Shown piece by piece: positions 1,469-63,624 of a DNA stretch of 64,000 nucleotides (position 1 is its first letter; each line of letters begins with the position of its first letter). The notes beneath the pieces are model-generated. The model worked only from the letters and a program-made list of their open reading frames with translations. It was not told the DNA's origin and ran no database searches. The stretch covers positions 4,734,581 through 4,798,580 of the forward strand of contig NC_007645.1 of NCBI RefSeq assembly GCF_000012985.1. Direction: 5' to 3'. A program made the translations under genes and the position numbers. The DNA is from Hahella chejuensis KCTC 2396. Its GTDB lineage: Bacteria; Pseudomonadota; Gammaproteobacteria; Pseudomonadales; Oleiphilaceae.

Positions 1469-2218
1469 TTAAAGTATCCGTTGCTGTACCCGGAAAACAA
1501 TGTCGTCAGGATTCGCCTGTTTACTCCAGGGCGCGCCCGCCAGGTCCAACAACCGTTTGCGAATTTGTATCTTCGCCGTGCCGTCCCGCGTTACCTGAGC
1601 GCTCATAACGGGTTTGTTTTCCGTGCTATCCAGTACTTCCAGGTGAATTTCCTCACCCTCCTGTTTAATCAGCCCCTGCAACGGAGGCATCGTGGCGGTC
1701 TTATTTTCCCGGCCCATCGGATAGGTAACCGGCCCGCCCGCCCACTGCGCTCGCCCTGAAGCTCGCACAGGAAGACCCGTATTGGTGTCCAGCGTCACAT
1801 CCAAGCCACTGATCTTCAGCTCTCCGCTCAGATTCAGACGATGGCGGCGCAACGCCGGCGCCAGCGCCGCCAGATCCAGAGAACCGTCAGCAAGCACCCG
1901 GACCTGATCGAATCCATCCAGAGCGGCTTTGGCGTCTATATCGATTTTGTTAGCGCGAAAGTTCAGCGCCAGAGCATCGCCCATCAGCAGAAGGCCGGAT
2001 GGATACACATCCCAGTCCAGCACGCCAGTGGCCCAAGAATGAGAAATCAGAGCTTTGCCTTCCCAAAGCGTGCCCTGCAGCTTCTGCACCCGCACGGGAA
2101 GTTGGTTGGCGGGAACGCCGGCCTGACGCCAAACAAACTCCACGGGCACGAGCAACACCAACCCCGCCAGATAGGTCAGGCCGCCAATAATAACCAATCC
2201 CACAATTTTTTTTATCAC
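1469..2218 (-). CDS. gspN: Type II secretion protein GspN
   Basis: Accessory inner-membrane protein of type II secretion; its exact role is not settled and it is absent from many systems. The 249-residue product has an N-terminal membrane helix (KIVGLVIIGGLTYLAGLVLL, residues ~4-24) followed by a periplasmic domain. Features typical of the family are LQGTLWEGKALI and the closing region of paired beta strands (VMSAQVTRDGTAKIQIRKR). It is the first gene of the leftward operon, whereas many systems carry gspN at the end of the cluster. The promoter should lie in the AT-rich stretch right of 2219. Confidence 0.88.
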   Translation of the reverse strand: MIKKIVGLVIIGGLTYLAGLVLLVPVEFVWRQAGVPANQLPVRVQKLQGTLWEGKALISHSWATGVLDWDVYPSGLLLMGDALALNFRANKIDIDAKAALDGFDQVRVLADGSLDLAALAPALRRHRLNLSGELKISGLDVTLDTNTGLPVRASGRAQWAGGPVTYPMGRENKTATMPPLQGLIKQEGEEIHLEVLDSTENKPVMSAQVTRDGTAKIQIRKRLLDLAGAPWSKQANPDDIVFRVQQRIL

Positions 2219-2596
2219 TTCTTTGGCCTACAACCTTCCCAATCAACCACTGAACATATGCATACGCGCAATGGACTACATTCTAATTGTTGAACCGACA
2301 AACCCTACTACGCCAAGCCTCGGCGGCCATTGTCGCTGGCCGGGCTCCGCCTCCGGGAGGTTTAAGACAACTGTCGCGAACAGCAGAATTCTTTTATCTT
2401 CGCCTCAAAATACAGGCTATAAATTTTTACATGGTAACAAAAGCATAGCAGTGTTTTCTAAAGAATATTTGCAACATTGGCAACGAGTTTGAGGTTAAAC
2501 ATTCTTAATAGACCTCTCCAGCCGCTCCAGGCTCTTCGCGCCATAAAAAAACCCGGCCGAAGCCGGGTTTTTCCGCGGGTGCGTTATGGGGGATGA
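2219..2596. other. Intergenic stretch between gspN and groEL
   Basis: 378 bases without a credible gene. The left two thirds are AT-rich and should hold the leftward promoter of the gsp operon, although no clean -35/-10 pair was identified. The right part carries the groEL terminator. Confidence 0.5.
2545..2572 (-). terminator. Rho-independent terminator after groEL
   Basis: Stem ACCCGGC / GCCGGGT (2551-2557 with 2562-2568) closed by a CGAA loop. On the minus strand it is followed by a run of T (A run 2545-2551 on the plus strand). It lies ~25 bp past the groEL stop. A short T run on the other side means it could also work rightward. Confidence 0.88.
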
Positions 2597-4258
<1,662 letters not shown>

Positions 4259-21383: not shown

Positions 21384-21432
21384 TTTTAATCAGGCAGACA
21401 AATAGTTTCCTTCTATTTGTCTGATTATTAAC
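21384..21432. repeat. Hairpin repeat element, copy D (hairpin h4 only)
   Basis: Minimal copy of the dispersed element: TTAATCAGGCAGACAAATAG, a short loop, then CTATTTGTCTGATTATTAA. It equals the outermost hairpin of the full copy at 51015 plus the opposite terminal arm, as if modules h0-h3 were deleted. It lies between the divergent CoA-transferase and AraC genes. Confidence 0.8.
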
Positions 21433-21656
21433 TCGACAACGCCCGGATAGCCGGACGCGTCACGTCAGCCACCTCCATTATCATGCCCTTTGATCAGACG
21501 CCAATGGGATTCCGCGCCAAAACCATTGGCGAAATCATCCTTGATCATGACAGGCAATTAGTTAAGACTGAGCAAATCAGAGTTTCTATAGATTCCAATG
21601 GGTTAGAGCCCCACAAGGGCATGACGAACAGTATTCTCCGCCGGTATACCCAAAAC

Positions 21657-23996: not shown

Positions 23997-24010
23997 ACGC
24001 ACCTCGTTGT

Positions 24011-24087
<77 letters not shown>

Positions 24088-24095
24088 GCATTCCA

Positions 24096-24127
24096 AAAAG
24101 CTCGATTTTATATCGGGCTTTTTTATT
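24096..24127 (+). terminator. Terminator after tRNA-fMet copy 1
   Basis: Stem AAGCTCGAT / ATCGGGCTT with a TTTAT-type loop, followed by T6. Same hairpin recurs at ~24785 and ~24893. Confidence 0.85.
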
Positions 24128-24194
24128 GCCTGAAAGACGACCTTAGCGGTCGTATGCGGAGGCCCGCCGCGATCAAATCCTGCCCCCGCAATCA
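24098..24194 (+). repeat. ~97-bp repeat unit ending in a tRNA-fMet 3' fragment (unit 1)
   Basis: Terminator hairpin, then the segment GACGACCTTAGCGGTCGTAT and a 22-base fragment (24173-24194) nearly identical to the 3' end of the initiator tRNA. The last bases are ATCA where the tRNA has ACCA. Same unit recurs after the second tRNA gene. Confidence 0.85.
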
Positions 24195-24203
24195 GCTTTC
24201 TTA

Positions 24204-24230
24204 AAGCCAGCTTTTTAGCTGGCTTTTTTA
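24204..24230 (+). terminator. Second terminator after repeat unit 1
   Basis: Stem AGCCAGCT / AGCTGGCT (24205-24212 with 24217-24224) followed by T6. Confidence 0.85.
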
Positions 24231-24656
24231 TTGTCTAAAAAAACGCCCTCTCTCCAGATAACAAGCCTACGAAGGCCACGGGTAGTCCACGCCAACTTAC
24301 GTAAGCCCCCTCACGCACTCACCATATTCATGGCGAATTCGGTATACCTTTCTTTGTTAAACACAGATCATTCAGGTTTCACAGAATGATATAAGCGCAT
24401 TATCAGCGAGACGGAATATTAGATAGAAATAAGTCGCTGCATAGGCGTCACCTTTATCCCTGCATACATTTCAAACTGGAGTAGACAGCTAGCCGAGAGG
24501 TGGAAGGCAACAAATTCCGCTGCCGAACCCTGATTCGTACAGCTAATAGAAGGATGCCCTTCTGCTATTTGCGCAGGAAAAGCCTTGCCCACCAGGGCTT
24601 CATCCAAAGCCAACCGATAAATAGCGATTTTTTCAAAAGTTTTTTAGCAATTGCCA
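24231..24656. other. Spacer between the two tRNA-fMet loci
   Basis: About 425 bases with no supported gene. Short frames on both strands (24419-24613 minus, 24500-24682 plus) overlap each other and lack ribosome sites. No insertion-sequence signature was seen. Confidence 0.4.
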
Positions 24657-24685
24657 TTGACGTACGCCACTCGGATCTTTAGTAT
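24657..24685 (+). promoter_or_regulatory. Sigma-70 promoter of the second tRNA-fMet gene
   Basis: TTGACG (24657-24662), 17-base spacer, TAGTAT (24680-24685): identical hexamers and spacing to the first copy, although most of the spacer differs. Confidence 0.82.
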
Positions 24686-24698
24686 ACGCCCTCGTTGT

Positions 24699-24775
<77 letters not shown>

Positions 24776-24784
24776 GAATTCTTA

Positions 24785-24882
24785 AAAGCTCGATTTTATA
24801 TCGGGCTTTTTTATTGCCTGAAAGACGACCTTAGCGGTCGTATGCGGAGGCCCGCCGCGATCAAATCCTGCCCCCGCAACCA
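24785..24882 (+). repeat. tRNA-fragment repeat unit 2 (with terminator hairpin)
   Basis: Almost identical to unit 1: hairpin AGCTCGAT / ATCGGGCT with T6, GACGACC stretch, and tRNA 3' fragment TCAAATCCTGCCCCCGCAAC then CA (24861-24882). Confidence 0.87.
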
Positions 24883-24891
24883 GCATTCCTA

Positions 24892-24991
24892 AAAGCTCGA
24901 TTTTATATCGGGCTTTTTTATTGCCTGAAAAAACGATCTTGGCGGTCGTATCCGGATGGCCGGCCCGTTCAAATCCTGCCCCCTGCAACCA
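24892..24991 (+). repeat. tRNA-fragment repeat unit 3 (diverged)
   Basis: Third tandem unit with the same terminator hairpin; the middle has diverged (GATCTTGGCGGTCGTATCCG). The tRNA fragment at 24968-24991 has one extra T before GCAACCA. Confidence 0.83.
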
Positions 24992-34390: not shown

Positions 34391-34774
34391 ATGAAATTGA
34401 TGAAGCTGCTTTACACCCTGGCGTTGGGCTCCTCCCTTTCCCTCAGCGCCTGCGCTCATACTCCGGGAACCAAACCCAGCGACGGAGACCCAAACTTCCC
34501 TAACCATCCGAATACCGGGGAAAGACATGATGCTAAAAATGTGGATAAATACGCGCCATTCAGAATTACGATGACCAGTGACGGCAGGATGGTAGTACTG
34601 AACGAAAAAGGCGAGGAAATGCGCCCTAACGCAAAACTGCCTCTTAAAGTGGTGGCTCACTATATTGAATCAGCCGAGTCCACGATGATTATGCGCTACA
34701 GAGGCTCGCCAGAATATTATGTGCTGGAAGTGGGAGGCGATATCTATCATGTTCCCATTCCTCACACCCATTAA
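34391..34774 (+). CDS. Small lipoprotein of unknown function
   Basis: 127 residues with a lipoprotein signal peptide and lipobox LSAC (Cys21). Mature part is hydrophilic with C-terminal beta strands (STMIMRYRGSPEYYVLEVGG, DIYHVPIPHTH). AAGGAG seven bases before the ATG. Thirty bp after the FecR-TPR-barrel gene and likely co-transcribed, so it may be its partner. Its stop codon is the left arm of hairpin element A. No named family recognised. Confidence 0.75.
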   Translation: MKLMKLLYTLALGSSLSLSACAHTPGTKPSDGDPNFPNHPNTGERHDAKNVDKYAPFRITMTSDGRMVVLNEKGEEMRPNAKLPLKVVAHYIESAESTMIMRYRGSPEYYVLEVGGDIYHVPIPHTH

Positions 34775-34848
34775 TAATCAGGCGCATGGATGCGCCTGCG
34801 CGGCGGTTAGCCGCGGGAGACAGGGCCTGACATGCGCAGGCCCTGTCG
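34771..34848 (+). repeat. Hairpin repeat element, copy A (hairpins h1-h2-h3)
   Basis: TTAATAATCAGGCGC start; h1 CAGGCGCATGGATGCGCCTG (34779-34798), h2 CGCGGCGGTTAGCCGCG (34799-34815), h3 stem GACAGGGCCTG / CAGGCCCTGTC (34819-34847). It begins on the lipoprotein stop codon and ends 13 bp from the stop of the convergent permease, so it can act as a two-way terminator. Confidence 0.88.
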
Positions 34849-34860
34849 ATTTAGACGAAA

Positions 34861-48925: not shown

Positions 48926-51010
48926 ATGCTGAATACGATCTCCGTGCGCCAGAAGATGTACGCCCTTATCGCAGTAGCCATCGCGGGCACGCTCATTCTA
49001 TTGATTCTGGCGCTTTACACTCACTACAAGACACTGGAAGAAACCCGCCAGCAAGAACTGCGTCATCTGGTGGAAAACGGATATTCCATCATAGAAAGCC
49101 ACTACCAGTCTTTCCAAAACGGAGCGCTCACGGAAGCGGAAGCAAAAACCCGCGCTCTGGAAGACATATCGAAGTTGCGTTACGACAATGGCAACTACTT
49201 TTGGGTCAACGATTACCATCCTCATGTGGTGATGCATCCCATCAAACCCGAACTGAACGGAAAGGACGCCACCGGGATCAAGGACCCCAACGGCAAAGCG
49301 CTGTTCGTGGCCTTTGCGGAGAAAGTGAAGGCGGACGGAGAAGGCGTGGTTGACTACTACTGGCCCAAACCCGGCTTCGAAAAACCCGTAGAGAAGTTTT
49401 CCTTTGTGAAGGGGTTTGCTCCGTGGGAGTGGGTGCTGGGAACCGGCGCCTATGTGGACGATCTCAAGGCAGAGTTTCAATCCAGTCTGATTGCAGGATT
49501 GACTATCGCCCTGGCGATAATCGCTCTGGTTATCGCCTGCTCACTGATGATCATACGCAGTATTACCCTGCCCCTTTCCCACATCGAAAAAGTACTGCTG
49601 GACGTAGAGGAAAGCGGCGACCTTTCCCGCAGGATTGAGAGCGTGAGAAAGGACGAACTGGGAAGAGTGGCGAACGCGACCAACCATCTGTTTGATCGTT
49701 GGCGGAAATTCATCGGGGAAGCCGGACATTCCGTAAAAAAACTCGGCGACGGCGACTTCGGCTCCCCCATCACCTCCGAGTATAAAGGCGACATGCAACA
49801 GTTGCGCGAGCACATCAATCACTCTATCGCCGTCACCGGACGCTCCATGGGCCGCATCAACTCCATCATGGAGGCCATGGCCGCAGGCCGCCTGACGACT
49901 CTTGAAGAAGACCACCGCATCCAGGGCGAGTTCGCACGCACGCTCACGCTGGTCAATAAAGCAGTGGAACAGTTCCAACACACGATTCGCATCGTACAGG
50001 AAAGACTTCAGGCCATGCGCGAAGGGGTCTTTGACAACCGCATAGAAGAAACCTTCCCGGGCGACCTTAACCATCTGAAGGTGGCGATCAATGACACGCT
50101 GGACACGCTGGCTTCCAGCTTCGCAAGGCTGGAAGAAAGCTTCCGGCGACTGAGCCAGGGACAGCTGGACCTGAGAACGCGAGACAAACAGCCTGGGCAG
50201 TTCGGCGAATTACAGGACCACCTGCGCCAGACCATCAGGTCATTGCATGAGATCGCCATTCAGTGTCGCTCCGATAGCACAAGTCTCACGTCCAGCACCG
50301 GGGAAGTGTCCAGCGCCTCCAGAGATCTGTCCCGCCGCACCGAAGAACAGGCCTCTGCGATTGAAAGCGCAACGCGCCTGATCGGAGAGCTGCGTGAGGA
50401 GCTGGATAACACCTCCGAGCTGGCGAAAGCCACGCGCAACGTCTCCGAGACCGCCGCCAAAGAAGCCCAACTGGGCCTCAGTGTTTCCGCCACTACCCTC
50501 GAGGCGATGTCTTCCATCAAGTCATCCAGCGAGAAGATCAATAACATTATCGGAGTCATCAACGATATCGCCTTCCAGACCAATCTGCTGGCGCTGAATG
50601 CCTCGGTCGAAGCGGCGCGGGCCGGTGAGCAAGGCCGTGGATTTTCGGTGGTGGCGGCGGAAGTGCGCGCTTTGGCGCAACGCTCCGCGGACGCCGCCAA
50701 AGACATCAAGAGTCTGATCGAGCTGGCGGTGACTGGCGTAGGCAAGGGCTCCGATCAGGTCTCACAGATGGCGGAGCAATTAAAAACCATCGCCGCAGGA
50801 ATTGAGGAAGTCAGCGGCAGAATTTCCAGCGTGTCGCAATCGAATTCGATTCAAACCACCCGGATTCGAGATGTCTTCACCCAGCTGGAGCAATTGAAGG
50901 ACATCACCCATCGTAACGCCTCCATGGCGGAACAAACCGCCGCCACCAGCGAGTCACTGGTCAATATGGCGGACTCTCTGGATGACAAGCTCAGTTTCTT
51001 CAAGACTTAA
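48926..51010 (+). CDS. Methyl-accepting chemotaxis protein with single-Cache sensor
   Basis: 694 residues. Membrane helix (~10-32), sCache domain (~35-185; NYFWVNDYHPHVVMHPIKPE is a classic sCache_2 stretch), second helix (~190-212), HAMP (~213-265). Then a second HAMP-like region and the signalling domain with core [20 protein letters not shown]. No C-terminal CheR-docking pentapeptide. Divergent from the interrupted chemoreceptor. Hairpin element B begins 5 bp after the stop. Confidence 0.95.
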   Translation: MLNTISVRQKMYALIAVAIAGTLILLILALYTHYKTLEETRQQELRHLVENGYSIIESHYQSFQNGALTEAEAKTRALEDISKLRYDNGNYFWVNDYHPHVVMHPIKPELNGKDATGIKDPNGKALFVAFAEKVKADGEGVVDYYWPKPGFEKPVEKFSFVKGFAPWEWVLGTGAYVDDLKAEFQSSLIAGLTIALAIIALVIACSLMIIRSITLPLSHIEKVLLDVEESGDLSRRIESVRKDELGRVANATNHLFDRWRKFIGEAGHSVKKLGDGDFGSPITSEYKGDMQQLREHINHSIAVTGRSMGRINSIMEAMAAGRLTTLEEDHRIQGEFARTLTLVNKAVEQFQHTIRIVQERLQAMREGVFDNRIEETFPGDLNHLKVAINDTLDTLASSFARLEESFRRLSQGQLDLRTRDKQPGQFGELQDHLRQTIRSLHEIAIQCRSDSTSLTSSTGEVSSASRDLSRRTEEQASAIESATRLIGELREELDNTSELAKATRNVSETAAKEAQLGLSVSATTLEAMSSIKSSSEKINNIIGVINDIAFQTNLLALNASVEAARAGEQGRGFSVVAAEVRALAQRSADAAKDIKSLIELAVTGVGKGSDQVSQMAEQLKTIAAGIEEVSGRISSVSQSNSIQTTRIRDVFTQLEQLKDITHRNASMAEQTAATSESLVNMADSLDDKLSFFKT

Positions 51011-51014
51011 TTTT

Positions 51015-51164
51015 TTATTAATCAGGCAGTCAAATAGCTTCCTTCTATTTGTCTGCAACGACAGGGCCTGCACATGTCAGGCCCTGTCTCCCGCGGCTAA
51101 CAGCCGCGCAGGCGCATCCATGCGCCTGGTTATTAACATGTCAATATCATTGCCATATTAATAA
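51015..51164 (-). repeat. Hairpin repeat element, copy B (full length, five hairpins)
   Basis: The most complete copy, 150 bp, inverted relative to copy A. From left: h4 (51026-51056), h3 GACAGGGCCTG / CAGGCCCTGTC (51060-51088), h2 CGCGGCTAACAGCCGCG (51092-51108), h1 CAGGCGCATCCATGCGCCTG (51109-51128), h0 with arms TTATTAACATG and ATATTAATAA (51130-51164). It fills the gap between convergent genes. Confidence 0.9.
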
Positions 51165-51206
51165 AACTTGTTCTTTCAAGGTCTGTTCTTTCAAGACCAG
51201 ACCTAA

Positions 51207-51226
51207 GCTGACGCCAAGGCGTCAGC
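51207..51226 (-). terminator. Hairpin overlapping the stop of the DUF6713-like gene
   Basis: Perfect stem GCTGACGCC / GGCGTCAGC with a 2-base loop, spanning the stop codon. The T tract is weak. Confidence 0.55.
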
Positions 51227-51590
51227 GTTGATGTCTTTCGAATAACCGGGTCTGAAAAAACTGCCAGAGGCCGCTGACCAGACAGGCGATAATCAACGCG
51301 ATGGACAGCGGCAGCTTGAACTGCGTGTAACCGGCGAGAAAGAAGCCGGCGTGAATGAGGAACGTGAGCATGCCAAGGCCCGCGCAGATATAGGAAAACC
51401 AGACCGCATTGCGTTTCTTCAGCAACACTTGTCGATATCCGTAAAGCAGCATGGGCAAAGCCAGCATGTTGAAAATCAGATATCCCTGCACGCCTCCCGG
51501 AAGTTGAAACATCTCCCACTCTTTCCAGTAAGCGGCGTCAATCTGGTGAAAAACCAACAAACATAAGGTTGTCAGGTAACCACGCTCCAT
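51222..51590 (-). CDS. Small membrane protein (DUF6713-like)
   Basis: 122 residues with four hydrophobic helices (~6-18, 33-52, 62-84, 92-110). The sequence LLVFHQIDAAYWKEWEMFQL and LPGGVQGYLIFN agrees with the DUF6713 family of uncharacterised integral membrane proteins as I recall it. Function unknown. Ends inside a hairpin; preceded by an AT-rich gap before rluA. Confidence 0.7.
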   Translation of the reverse strand: MERGYLTTLCLLVFHQIDAAYWKEWEMFQLPGGVQGYLIFNMLALPMLLYGYRQVLLKKRNAVWFSYICAGLGMLTFLIHAGFFLAGYTQFKLPLSIALIIACLVSGLWQFFQTRLFERHQR

Positions 51591-52642: not shown

Positions 52643-54376
52643 ATGCCACATCGCGCGCATCTGCGTTCGGTACGTCTGGCCAGCGCCTTTGTCGATAGCT
52701 GCATCAAAGAACCCTACAACCTTCACCGCTTTCGCAAGGACCTTATCGCCGGCGTAACTGTGGGTATTATCGCCATCCCCCTGGCCATGGCGCTCGCTAT
52801 CGCCAGCGGCGTGCCGCCGCAACACGGCCTTTATACCGCCATGATAGCGGGCTTCCTGATTGCGTTGACCGGAGGCTCCCGCCTGAGCATATCCGGCCCT
52901 ACCGCCGCCTTTGTGGTGATCCTGTTCCCCATCGCCTCCCAGTTCGGACTGGCGGGCCTCCTGATGGCGACACTGATGTCCGGCTTCATTCTGGTGGGGC
53001 TGGCTCTGGCGCGATTGGGCAGACTGATCGAATACATCCCTGAATCCGTCACCCTGGGCTTCACTTCCGGCATCGCTATCGTTATCGCCACGTTACAGGT
53101 GAAAGACTTTTTCGGACTCAGCCTCGCCGAAATGCCGGAATCCTATATCGGCAAAGTCCACGCCTTGGCGCTGGCGCTGCCGACCTTGGACTGGGCGAAT
53201 GTCCTGGTGGCGTCTCTCACTCTGGCGTTACTGATACTGTGGCCGCGACTGAAAATGCCGATCCCCGGACACTTACCCGCCGTTTTGCTTGGCGTCGCAG
53301 TTTCTCTTGCACTGGGATCAGCCGGGCATCCTGTAGACACCATTGGCTCTCGCTTCACTTATCCGCTCGCCGACGGCGGCGTGGGCCACGGCATTCCCAG
53401 TTTATTTCCCGACTTTACCTGGCCCTGGCTGCAGCCAGGGCCGGACGGTCAGCCATTGGCGTGGACCTGGAGCACCTTTGAACAGCTGCTGCCGGCGGCG
53501 TTCTCCATCGCCATGTTGGGCGCGATAGAGTCTTTGCTCTGCGCCGTCGTTCTGGACGGTATGACCGGGCGCCGCCACCAGGCTAACGGAGAACTGCTGG
53601 GTCAGGGCATCGGCAATCTTGTGGTCCCGTTTTTCGGCGGTATTACCGCGACCGCCGCCATTGCGCGCTCCACCGCCAATTACCGTTCCGGCGCCGAGTC
53701 TCCCGTTTCCGGCATGGTTCATGCCGCCGTGGTGCTGGCCGGGTTAATCGCGCTGGGACCGCTGCTCGCCTATCTGCCGATGGCCTCCATGGCGGCGCTG
53801 TTATTAATGGTGGCGTGGAATATGAGCGAAGCGCATAAGGTGGTCGCCCTGATCAAAAAAGCGCCTACCGGAGATATTCTGGTATTGATGACCTGCCTCA
53901 CGCTGACCGTGCTATTCGATATGGTGTTGGCGATTTCCGCCGGTATCGTCCTGGCCGCGTTGCTGTTTATGCGCGATATATCGATGATGACCAAGGTCTC
54001 CGATATCTCTGCTCATCCCAAGCTGGTCTCCACGCCGCTACCGGACAATTGGGCGGTGTATAAAATCAACGGCCCCCTGTTCTTCGCCGCCGCCGACCGG
54101 GTGTTCTCCGAGCTGGAAATGCTGACGACGACAAAACAGGGCCTGATTCTGTATATGGACGCGGTTTCCCTGCTGGACGCAGGCGGGTTATCCGCTTTCA
54201 ACAAATTCTCACGATTGTGTCAGCAACGGGGCCAAACGCTCATCCTGGCGGATCTGCAGTTCCAACCTTTACGTACGCTGGCCAAAGCCAACGTAAAACC
54301 CGTCGAGGGCAGTCTGGGCTTCGCCCCTACTCTCAGCGACGCCTTGCAGTTAATTATTAATCAGGCAGACAAATAG
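52643..54376 (+). CDS. SulP family anion transporter with STAS domain
   Basis: 577 residues. 10-14 membrane helices with the SulP core KDLIAGVTVGIIAIPLAMAL AIASGV at residues ~33-58, and a C-terminal STAS domain (~440-560, LYMDAVSLLDAGGLSAFNKF). Transports sulfate, bicarbonate or related anions; substrate unproven. The last residues INQADK and the stop TAG (54374-54376) are encoded by hairpin element C, whose left arm begins at 54354. The original end of the gene has probably been replaced. Confidence 0.92.
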   Translation: MPHRAHLRSVRLASAFVDSCIKEPYNLHRFRKDLIAGVTVGIIAIPLAMALAIASGVPPQHGLYTAMIAGFLIALTGGSRLSISGPTAAFVVILFPIASQFGLAGLLMATLMSGFILVGLALARLGRLIEYIPESVTLGFTSGIAIVIATLQVKDFFGLSLAEMPESYIGKVHALALALPTLDWANVLVASLTLALLILWPRLKMPIPGHLPAVLLGVAVSLALGSAGHPVDTIGSRFTYPLADGGVGHGIPSLFPDFTWPWLQPGPDGQPLAWTWSTFEQLLPAAFSIAMLGAIESLLCAVVLDGMTGRRHQANGELLGQGIGNLVVPFFGGITATAAIARSTANYRSGAESPVSGMVHAAVVLAGLIALGPLLAYLPMASMAALLLMVAWNMSEAHKVVALIKKAPTGDILVLMTCLTLTVLFDMVLAISAGIVLAALLFMRDISMMTKVSDISAHPKLVSTPLPDNWAVYKINGPLFFAAADRVFSELEMLTTTKQGLILYMDAVSLLDAGGLSAFNKFSRLCQQRGQTLILADLQFQPLRTLAKANVKPVEGSLGFAPTLSDALQLIINQADK

Positions 54377-54462
54377 CTTCCTGCTATGTGTCAGCAACGA
54401 CAGGGCCAGCACATGTCGGGCCCTGTCTCCCTCGGCGCTCGCCCATACGCGACATGTGGTTA
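54354..54462 (-). repeat. Hairpin repeat element, copy C (h4-h3, decayed h2/h1)
   Basis: Same orientation as copy B. TTATTAATCAGGCAGAC start, h4 with CTATG in place of CTATT, h3 GACAGGGCC / GGGCCCTGTC (54399-54427). A degraded tail follows, with GACATGTGGTTAAAT in place of h1/h0. It provides the stop codon of the SulP gene and likely its terminator. Confidence 0.82.
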
Positions 54463-60791: not shown

Positions 60792-60868
60792 TTATTAACA
60801 TGGCAACGATATTGGAATGTTAATAATCAGGCGCAGGGAAACGCCTGCGCGGCGGCCAGCCGCGGGAT
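60792..60868 (+). repeat. Hairpin repeat element, copy E (h0-h1-h2)
   Basis: h0 arms TTATTAACAT (60792-60801) and ATGTTAATAA (60817-60826) enclosing CAA/TTG pairs; h1 CAGGCGCAGGGAAACGCCTG (60828-60847); h2 CGCGGCGGCCAGCCGCG (60848-60864). The similarity to copies A and B ends at GGGA. It overlaps the start of the open frame of the MASE1 kinase. Confidence 0.87.
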
Positions 60869-63624
60869 CAATAAATACCCCAAGGTTATATCCGGCCAAC
60901 GTGGCGCAAACTTGTGTCTATAATCAGAGTGGCGCTGATTATTTTTTAGCCCAACAGGAGGTTGCCCGCGCCGGTTTGCTACTGTCACTGCCCGGCAGCA
61001 ACGCCAGCCCGGTATGGATACCCGCCGGCATCGCATTGGCGGGAATGATTCATTATGGCCGTAATATCTGGCCCGCCATCTGGCTCGCGAGCTTCGCTGT
61101 GGAATTAGTCTCCCAGCAAGCGGACTCCTTCAGTAAAGTTATGCTGGCGCTCGCTATCTCCGTCGGCGCCCCGCTGCAAGCCTTCATCGGCGCCGCACTG
61201 ATTCGCATGCGTGCGAATTTCAGTCCTTCTCTGGAAAAAAAAGAGGATGTGGCGCGCTTACTTATACTTGGCGGACCAGTGGCTTGCGTCACCAGCGCAA
61301 CCATCAGCATTACCCTCATGACCAGCCTGGGCGTCATACACATTCGAGACGCCGGCGCCCATTGGCTGGCGTGGTGGTTTGGCGATACTTTCGGCGTATT
61401 GATCTTCACCCCGATTCTTCTGCTGTGGCTGCGAAAGGAAAACAGTACGCTGAAACGAAGGCTGCTGGTCACGCTTCCCGGGCTGGCGTCTTTCTCTCTC
61501 GCCGTGATTTCTCATTATTATCTGGTGCAAGCAGACCAGAAGCAGGTTAAAGAAGACGTGCATCAACAGGGCGTGCAACTACGCTGGTCCACGTTCAATC
61601 AAGTGCAGGGGATCACCAACGCCGTCAGCGCCCTCGCCTTGCTGTTTGAGGGGGCGAAAGTCATCGTGCCGCAAGACTTTGAACGTTACGCCTCACAGTT
61701 TCGCAATTTCCATCACGATATCAGCGGCATGGGATGGGCCCCTTATATTGATAAGGCCAACCGTTCCCATTTCGAACACTGGGCGTCGTTGCTGCTGGAG
61801 AAGGAATATCAAATACACGAAACCCTGGGCCAACAACAAATTCCCGCCTCGGAGCGCAATTTCTATGTCCCAGTGTTATATGTGACGCCTAATAATGAAC
61901 TCACCCGCGCCGCACAGGGGTTCGACCTGTATTCCAACGAGATACGCCGTAACGCCATTCTGAAAGCCATGCATAACGGCGATCTGACGCTCACGGCGCC
62001 GATCACTCTAGTGGGAAACTATGGCAAAGGCGCAATATGTATTGCGCCGGTTTACTCCACTCCGCCGCAGACCTCCAACTCTGATGAAGCGCGTCAGGTC
62101 ATGGGATTCATCGTAGGATCGGTCCAGATCGGCAACCTTATTGATCGTTTATCCCAGGACATCAATCTTGAACTGTTTCATATCGAAATTTTCGATATCA
62201 CCGACCCCGAACAACCCGAGGCGTTATTCATTTCACGCCAGAGCGCGCCGGACAACCCTTTGGAGGATATGTTCACTCAGACCCTGCAAATGGAAATATC
62301 AGGGCGGGTCTGGCGAATTTCCATCACGCCGACGCGTTTATTCATCAAACAAAACGCCTCCGTCACCCCCTGGATAGCGCTGATTCTGGCTGTCTTGTTC
62401 AGCAGTCTGCTTACCGCCGTCCTGCTATTGGAAACTGCGCATACCGTCAAGATCGAAAAGGCGGTCATCGATCAGTCACAGCGACTGGAAAAAGCGGAAA
62501 CTCGTTATCAGGAACTATTCACCGGCCTGAAGCAGGTCATCTTTCAGGTTGATAAAGCCTATCAGTGGCAGGTGTTGAATCCCGCCTGGAGCGGCTTGAC
62601 AGGAGAAACCCCAGAGAACGCCATTGGCCGTGAAATGTTCCATTACATTCACCCTGACGACTGCGACAAGCTAAGAGAAGCGTTACAGAAGATCTCCCGA
62701 CTGGAAGAATCCAGTCTGTTTTTGGAGTTGCGCCTGAACGCCCTGCAACTGGAACGCGCGCCCTGGGTGGAAATCCATCTGCAACGCAGCAAAGACGCCA
62801 CTGGCAAAATGGACGGCTATAGCGGTTTCATCGCCGACATCAGCGAGCGCAAGCGCCTGGATATTCTGAAAAACGAGTTTATTTCCACTGTTTCCCATGA
62901 ACTGCGTACGCCTCTGACGGCCATCAACGGCTCCCTGGCGCTACTGGATTCCGGTCGCCTCGGCCTGCTGCCAGATCAGGCCAAACAAATGCTGCACATC
63001 GCTTACAGTAACTGTGAACGCTTGCTGCGCCTGATCAATGACTTACTTGATATTCAGAAAATAGAGTCCGGCGGTCTGGAGTTCAGCTTCGAGCGCGCCG
63101 ACTTACGAGATCTTATCGAGGAAGCCTTGAACGCCAATCGGCAACTCGCGGAAAAAGCGTCCGTCACCCTTGTCTTTGCAACGCCCGAGTCTCCTGCCCT
63201 GGTGAAAGCAGACCGGGATCGATTGCGGCAGGTGTTGGATAACCTGATTTCCAACGCCATCAAATTCTCACCCGCCGATGAGGCGGTGACGCTGACGCTG
63301 AACGCTCACGCCCACTATTGGGAAGTCGCTGTACAGGATCAGGGGCCAGGGGTGCCGCCTGAGTTCCGCAACAAGATCTTCCAGAAATTCGCTCAGGCGG
63401 ATAGCTCCGACACCCGCTTAAAGGGCGGCACCGGCTTGGGATTAAGCATCTCCAGAGAAATCGTCCAGCGTCATCATGGCCAGATCGGCTACCATTCCGA
63501 GGCGAATTGCGGCGCCACATTTTATTTTCGTCTACACGCCTTGACCAACGGAGCAACCTGGGACGCGCAAGCATGTCGTAGCGCTGGGGGAGGTAATATT
63601 CCCGTCGAAAGGACCTTTCTTTGA
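60817..63624 (+). CDS. MASE1-CHASE-PAS sensor histidine kinase (N terminus probably disrupted)
   Basis: 935-codon frame. MASE1 membrane sensor (~60-250: GSNASPVWIPAGIALAGMIH), CHASE (~250-430), PAS/PAC (~560-680), HisKA with H-box STVSHELRTPLTAINGSLAL and HATPase with NLISNAIKFSP, DQGPGVPP and GGTGLGLSISREIV. No receiver domain. The first ~37 residues are translation of repeat element E and its flank. The first MASE1 helix is seen only in another frame (WRKLVSIIRVALIIF) joining after a T6 run at 60942-60947. A lost base is likely, so the true start is unknown. Confidence 0.85.
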   Translation: MLIIRRRETPARRPAAGSINTPRLYPANVAQTCVYNQSGADYFLAQQEVARAGLLLSLPGSNASPVWIPAGIALAGMIHYGRNIWPAIWLASFAVELVSQQADSFSKVMLALAISVGAPLQAFIGAALIRMRANFSPSLEKKEDVARLLILGGPVACVTSATISITLMTSLGVIHIRDAGAHWLAWWFGDTFGVLIFTPILLLWLRKENSTLKRRLLVTLPGLASFSLAVISHYYLVQADQKQVKEDVHQQGVQLRWSTFNQVQGITNAVSALALLFEGAKVIVPQDFERYASQFRNFHHDISGMGWAPYIDKANRSHFEHWASLLLEKEYQIHETLGQQQIPASERNFYVPVLYVTPNNELTRAAQGFDLYSNEIRRNAILKAMHNGDLTLTAPITLVGNYGKGAICIAPVYSTPPQTSNSDEARQVMGFIVGSVQIGNLIDRLSQDINLELFHIEIFDITDPEQPEALFISRQSAPDNPLEDMFTQTLQMEISGRVWRISITPTRLFIKQNASVTPWIALILAVLFSSLLTAVLLLETAHTVKIEKAVIDQSQRLEKAETRYQELFTGLKQVIFQVDKAYQWQVLNPAWSGLTGETPENAIGREMFHYIHPDDCDKLREALQKISRLEESSLFLELRLNALQLERAPWVEIHLQRSKDATGKMDGYSGFIADISERKRLDILKNEFISTVSHELRTPLTAINGSLALLDSGRLGLLPDQAKQMLHIAYSNCERLLRLINDLLDIQKIESGGLEFSFERADLRDLIEEALNANRQLAEKASVTLVFATPESPALVKADRDRLRQVLDNLISNAIKFSPADEAVTLTLNAHAHYWEVAVQDQGPGVPPEFRNKIFQKFAQADSSDTRLKGGTGLGLSISREIVQRHHGQIGYHSEANCGATFYFRLHALTNGATWDAQACRSAGGGNIPVERTFL

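Follow-up and report, generated by a model that had tools for sequence, protein, structure and literature searches.

Why does a stretch of DNA that folds into five hairpins, edged by TTAATAA or TTATTAA, recur with different subsets of those hairpins inside one 64,000-nucleotide segment of the Hahella chejuensis KCTC 2396 genome (the window), and what spreads it? An earlier note, made from the letters alone, named five copies (A through E) and offered two possibilities, namely a non-autonomous mobile element or a modular REP/BIME-like family that evolves by the loss of whole hairpins. It looked ahead to a covariance scan of this genome and its relatives, to empty sites in related strains, and to a transposase associated with the same terminal arms. 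The copy treated here, B, belongs to a family that numbers a few hundred in the 7.2-Mb genome. From the comparisons described below, we judge B very probably to be a MITE, a non-autonomous, TA-inserting element of 144 bp that is most likely moved in trans by a resident IS630-family transposase.

All five named copies are recovered in the window. The parts of copy B and the extents of the other four copies are as follows.

51018..51161, plus strand: copy B, the full-length element proper, 144 bp, TTAATCAGGC...GCCATATTAA, with ends taken from the empty sites of related copies
51016..51017, strand not applicable: left TA of the target duplication of copy B (sequence and empty-site comparison)
51162..51163, strand not applicable: right TA of the target duplication of copy B (sequence and empty-site comparison)
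51026..51056, plus strand: hairpin h4 of copy B, beside the left end (DNA and RNA folds)
51060..51088, plus strand: hairpin h3 of copy B (DNA and RNA folds)
51092..51108, plus strand: hairpin h2 of copy B, whose loop is the most variable place in the family (DNA and RNA folds, variation count)
51109..51128, plus strand: hairpin h1 of copy B (DNA and RNA folds, palindrome matches)
51130..51164, plus strand: hairpin h0 of copy B, largely made of the IS630-like right end (DNA and RNA folds, end match)
60795..60871, minus strand (match to B at 60792-60867): copy E, with an internal deletion (consensus 7-73, h4 and h3 gone), both ends, and a TA on each side; the corresponding site in genome G005 is empty (DNA match, G005 comparison, deletion listing)
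34771..34859, minus strand: copy A, h1-h2-h3, with h0 lost in this lineage and h4 absent also from the G005 orthologue (DNA match, G005 comparison)
54354..54440, plus strand (match to B at 54354-54436): copy C, the left end with h4, h3, and the start of h2 (DNA match)
21385..21448, plus strand: copy D, the left end with h4, decayed, and present and decayed in G005 as well (match to model positions 3-59 only, G005 comparison)

Relative to B, matches in the window place copies E and A in inverted orientation and copy C in direct orientation. Copy B folds as DNA into five successive hairpins with a free energy of -44.9 kcal/mol (z -9.44) and as RNA into five successive hairpins as well (z -9.37). 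In both cases, 0 of 200 shuffled sequences are as stable. The 20-base h1 palindrome alone has five matches at three places in the window, where 0.05 would be expected.

The family is far larger than the window reveals. We refer to the genome of the window (a single contig of 7,215,267 bases, on which the window spans 4,734,581-4,798,580) as G000 and to six other Hahella genomes as G001 through G006. A DNA search of G000 yields 272 first-look candidates, and each of the 40 that were scored is near full length with 93-100% identity. An 800-kb sample of G000 yields 31 matches of at least 20 bits (15 at full length), which extrapolates to ~280 in the genome; an equal sample of G005 holds 15 such matches, including nine of full length. 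For the covariance scan, the default RNAalifold structure (model R1, 26 pairs) fitted the hairpins poorly, and a five-hairpin structure (model R2, 50 pairs) was used instead. Model R2 gives at least 150 matches in G000 (150 being the number scored, and thus a lower bound), 138 in G005, 78 in G001, 48 in G004, and four in G006, but none in G002 or G003, such that the element is present in four of the six other Hahella genomes. Thus, a scan that might have returned only a few copies returned hundreds, with more in the relatives.

Outside Hahella, the searches made here return no more than a fragment of the element. A DNA search of 29 genomes finds it in five, all Hahella, and in none of 22 genomes from 22 other genera. 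Likewise, R2 finds no match in six genomes from other genera in which a related transposase occurs, among the 150 candidates scored per genome (of 1,587-3,329), a set that holds no positive genome; the same model does recover copies in Hahella. An exact-pattern scan of named genomes, in a collection that may omit near genomes, hits Hahella sp. HN01 in five stretches and a Salinisphaera MAG in one. The latter match (Salinisphaera sp. UBA6602, L148:3921-3947) covers 27 bases of the left end and nothing of the element beyond it.

The copies lie between genes. A simple gene caller predicts 606 genes of at least 90 codons in the 800 kb (81% coding), and of 30 copies scoring at least 40 bits, none has its midpoint in a predicted gene. 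Copy E and the gene next to it overlap at that gene's predicted start. Nine of these copies are located between convergent genes, 16 between codirectional genes, and five between divergent genes; convergent gaps make up ~14% of the non-coding bases and divergent gaps ~25%. A promoter scan of positions 50900-51300 reveals no promoter-like site, and a terminator scan around copy B locates three terminator-like sites, none of them inside B.

Are the hairpins themselves maintained? Selection might keep the array, acting on single-stranded DNA or on transcripts of neighboring genes, over and above the status of the element as a MITE, but we regard this as rather doubtful. To count changes, we collected 146 copies (103 full length, 99 distinct), a sample that leans to high scorers. 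The count on the 99 distinct copies uses 50 pairs and omits consensus pairs 122-142 and 126-138, which are often or mostly unpaired, and a second alignment holds 46 of 50 chosen copies, with L217, L218, L219, and L227 omitted for odd length. The compensatory base changes in stems that the earlier note looked for do exist. Specifically, double-sided changes that keep a pair fill 21 cells of 13 types in the 99 distinct copies, compared with 3.4 and 3.2 in shuffles, and 12 cells at nine pairs in the 46 copies, compared with 1.8 and 1.7; in each set, 0 of 500 shuffles are as high. Furthermore, variation is lower in stems (0.042) than at other positions (0.079), and the frequency of convergent gene pairs around the copies (9 of 30) exceeds the share of non-coding bases in such gaps.

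These observations must be weighed against several others. The shuffles leave the relatedness of the copies in place, most stem changes either break a pair or leave a G-T, and paired cells are scarcely more frequent than in shuffles (95.2 versus 94.7% in the 99 copies and 93.9 versus 93.3% in the 46). When pairing partners are slid by -3 in the 46-copy alignment, 11 double-change cells still appear with a covariation score of 0.040 versus 0.039, though at only four pairs. Moreover, template-switch repair of imperfect palindromes could yield the same double changes, and copy B contains no terminator-like site. Because stems show more double-sided changes than shuffles, the data suggest that the hairpin form may be maintained, whether by selection or by template-switch repair. 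It seems unlikely that the five-hairpin array of active copies is itself selected, with stems restored by double changes, because it helps the element to spread or makes its insertions tolerable. If true, the array would act in single-stranded DNA during transposition or in transcripts, and the element would be a MITE with a structured inner array unrelated to its parent IS. The loop of h2 (consensus 84-86) varies far more than the rest of the family, as might result from lack of constraint or from local hypermutation.

Evidence for mobility comes from empty sites in a related genome, which were sought by setting 800 kb of G000 against the corresponding 800 kb of G005. This comparison was restricted to full-length copies, i.e. 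24 of the 46 matches of at least 20 bits. A spanning alignment in the other genome (83-94% identity) exists for 18 of these 24 copies and is lacking for six. In all 18 cases, TA-element-TA of the filled allele corresponds to two bases in the empty one. Those two bases are TA in 11 cases and CA, AA, CG, TG, TG, TG, and AA in the remainder, which we attribute to the 6-17% divergence between the genomes. For five of the 18 sites the ends were set only approximately by script, and several have indels beside the joint. Particularly clear empty alleles are found at G005:2570372 (GTGGAAACTTATAACAAAAACGCC), G000:5257226 (CCTCGTATTAAATTTGTAAG), and G000:4939741 (CATGTCATTAAGATTC), and the site of copy B in G005 is also empty, with CA at the joint. 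Insertions of the element are species-specific among the Hahella genomes compared. Duplication of TA is given as a trait of IS630/Tc1/mariner elements in the relevant passages of one source (PMC7325037).

The joints of the empty sites also define the element as TTAATCAGGC...GCCATATTAA, and they explain the outer TTATTAA and TTAATAA as a duplicated TA followed or preceded by the TTAA end of the element. The TTAATAA arms described earlier thus combine target and element end at the outer edges, whereas the inner TTATTAA at the border of h0 and h1 is part of the element. The terminal inverted repeats, TTAATCAGGCA and TTAATATGGCA, agree at nine of their first 11 bases and are imperfect further in; the longer ends read TTAATCAGGCAGACAAATAG on the left and TTAATATGGCAATGATATTGGCAT on the right. 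By eye, the h4-h1 core carries an inverted repeat of its own (consensus 1-12 versus 108-121), with TTATTAATCAGGC outside and GCCTGATTATTAA inside, and for this reason h0 looks like an added unit carrying a second copy of the end.

A DDE_3 search of the seven Hahella genomes led to an insertion sequence (IS) of ~1.1 kb whose only frame has 348 codons. The encoded protein is an IS630-family transposase (NF033545, 235 bits versus a cut-off of 100) that also matches PF13358. Intact frames number one in G000, three in G001, and three in G005, each beside broken copies. In G004 there are 15 transposase fragments with 87-97% identity, some of which have their first base at position 2 or 3 of a contig, a pattern that a draft assembly would be expected to show for a multi-copy IS. 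At E 1e-10 or better, G006, G003, and G002 contain no match to this transposase. Element and IS go together across the seven genomes, since the same four copy-rich genomes (G000, G005, G001, and G004) carry both, and G002 and G003 carry neither. The four element matches in G006, where no IS was found, count against this agreement.

The ends of the IS follow the pattern TA|TTAAYnnGGCA (for example, TA|TTAATCCGGCACCGATATAAGCAT and TA|TTAACCAGGCATCGATATAGGCAT), and an IS with similar terminal arms, such as the earlier note proposed to look for, is present in G000. We built a scoring matrix from nine IS ends and used 1,592,196 other positions in the 800 kb as background. The right end of the element scores 22.2 bits, a value reached by none of these positions, and the left end scores 4.2 bits, which 51 of them reach. 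Neither score is attained at any of 239 other TATTAA sites. Beyond TTAA the right end is still strong (14.2 bits, with seven positions as good), but the left end is weak (-3.8 bits, with 3,119 of 1.59 million positions as good). At L139:1457-1791 in G001, an IS shortened to ~335 bp retains both termini; the left one is TTAATCAGGCA, as in the element.

Three further features of these sequences deserve mention. The ~335-bp IS derivative at L139 sits inside an apparent recombinase gene and is a possible intermediate from IS to MITE. A broken IS copy at L144 (~920-960 on the transposase strand; G000:6032400) directly abuts the right end of a MITE remnant. Finally, G000 has a second IS630-family group (L125, L129, L133, L137, and L140) with frames of 114 and 208 codons, possibly read by frameshift, whose copies are nearly identical and end in TAAGTA/TAAGCA. 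This group, with its 208-codon frame, was rejected as the mover of the element because its ends are unrelated.

Might a different TA-targeting transposase of the same genomes move the MITE, the end match being mere family likeness? The element resembles the IS only over ~24 bp of its ends, such that another transposase of the same group could be responsible. ISs in three genomes of other genera, with transposases 57-63% identical, begin with TA|TTAACCnGG at both ends; since a TTAAYCnGG start is common to related IS630-family elements of several genera, several transposases could recognize such ends. G005 also encodes a second, distant 348-codon relative (34% identity). Nevertheless, the right-end match runs over the full 24 bp, the other multi-copy IS630 group of G000 has the unrelated ends noted above, and the distributions of element and IS agree across seven genomes. 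Thus, we consider a different mover improbable.

REP/BIME families with RAYT transposases are intergenic hairpin repeats in high copy number. Spread of the Hahella element by a RAYT (Y1) transposase through single-stranded hairpins would fit its hairpins, copy number, and intergenic position, as well as the three Y1_Tnp genes that a PF01797 search finds in G000, but this reading is very improbable because those loci are not flanked by the element (one copy lies ~1.1 kb off, and the other two loci have none within 1.5 kb) and because the element has a TA duplication and IS630-like ends on both sides, neither of which, to our knowledge, is expected of REPs.

Of the two possibilities offered by the earlier note, the REP/BIME-like family is thus abandoned and the non-autonomous mobile element is borne out by the empty sites and by the IS with similar ends in the same genomes. 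The element has the character of a MITE in being short, non-coding, and dispersed in many copies, and in having ends that resemble those of a resident autonomous IS, strongly on the right and less so on the left. We propose that an IS630-family DDE transposase would bind the ends of the short element, move it, and insert it at a new TA, leaving it flanked by duplicated TA. This proposal draws on the 2-bp duplication (mostly TA), end similarity, co-occurrence across seven genomes, species-specific insertions, and intergenic location. We infer that the 348-codon protein is most likely the transposase that acts in trans. Once inserted, copies accumulate point mutations and lose internal or terminal segments, in several cases with short repeats at the break, and the family comes to look modular as a result.

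The shortened copies are in keeping with such decay. From a listing of 86 entries, 13 copies were counted by eye (L046, L047, L050, L051, L056, L065, L089, L094, L097, L099, L100, L151, and L157), the remainder being inner or reverse-strand matches or other sequences. These 13 retain both ends and measure 61-138 bp, and the repeat at their junctions spans 0-5 bases. Two of them share a deletion (consensus 76-88), and all others differ; six have lost only ~10-13 bases, and many breakpoints, judged by eye, are inside hairpins. Copy A has lost h0 in this lineage, given that its G005 orthologue keeps a decayed h0 (by eye), and a copy at G000:4840131 appears cut short at TCCATGCGA, a match shared by h1 and the flank (by eye). 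Judged by their sequences, then, the "modular" forms result from deletion, internal or terminal, at breakpoints that vary. Clean mosaics of whole hairpins do not describe them, and the proposal of whole-hairpin loss holds only roughly. Copy E, which lost h4 and h3, is one of these deletion forms.

Elements of this kind are already known, but we found no description of this particular Hahella family, which is apparently undescribed; the IS or the MITE may be in ISfinder. A scan of the window against Rfam at the gathering score, made to check for a catalogued repeat family, gives only two tRNA matches and leaves the element unmatched. Searches of the available literature on Hahella, bacterial MITEs, and IS630 MITEs showed no account of the family; the word Hahella is absent from the available portions of one MITE review (PMC10969869).

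The closest parallel is RUP (repeat unit of pneumococcus) of Streptococcus, which excerpts of two papers propose to be mobilized by IS630-Spn1 because of its ends and TA target (PMC2229807; PMC3049150). As excerpted there, RUP is short, non-coding, and intergenic, with a TA-containing target and ends like those of a resident IS630-family IS; at 107 bp and ~100 copies, it is set beside our element by description only. Unlike RUP, the Hahella element folds into five consecutive hairpins, is present in a few hundred copies, and resides in a gammaproteobacterium. BOX of pneumococcus, in the sections of PMC3049150 that treat it, is likewise a composite structured repeat of variable make-up whose proposed mover is an IS with similar ends; however, BOX gains and loses tandem boxB modules, whereas the Hahella element varies mostly by heterogeneous deletions. 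Correia/NEMIS elements of Neisseria, according to partial accounts, are also MITEs with TA at their termini and filled and empty sites, in forms of ~107 and 155 bp. Their terminal repeats of 24-26 bp pair with each other, whereas each end of the Hahella element is in or beside its own hairpin.

A MITE of a few hundred copies, with a likely transposase (one intact copy in G000) and readable empty sites in a congener, offers a favorable setting in which to learn how short elements become more numerous than their parent IS, and whether they gain from being built of hairpins. It also accounts for many intergenic repeats of Hahella, and it warns against calling them REPs or regulatory RNAs.

One other repeated structure occurs in the window. 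At positions 24002-24983, ARAGORN calls only two full tRNA-Met genes, which are nearly identical and 688 bases apart. They are followed by more copies of the 3′ part of the tRNA (TCAAATCCTGCCCCCGCAACCA), together with terminator-like sequences, at a spacing of ~107 bases.
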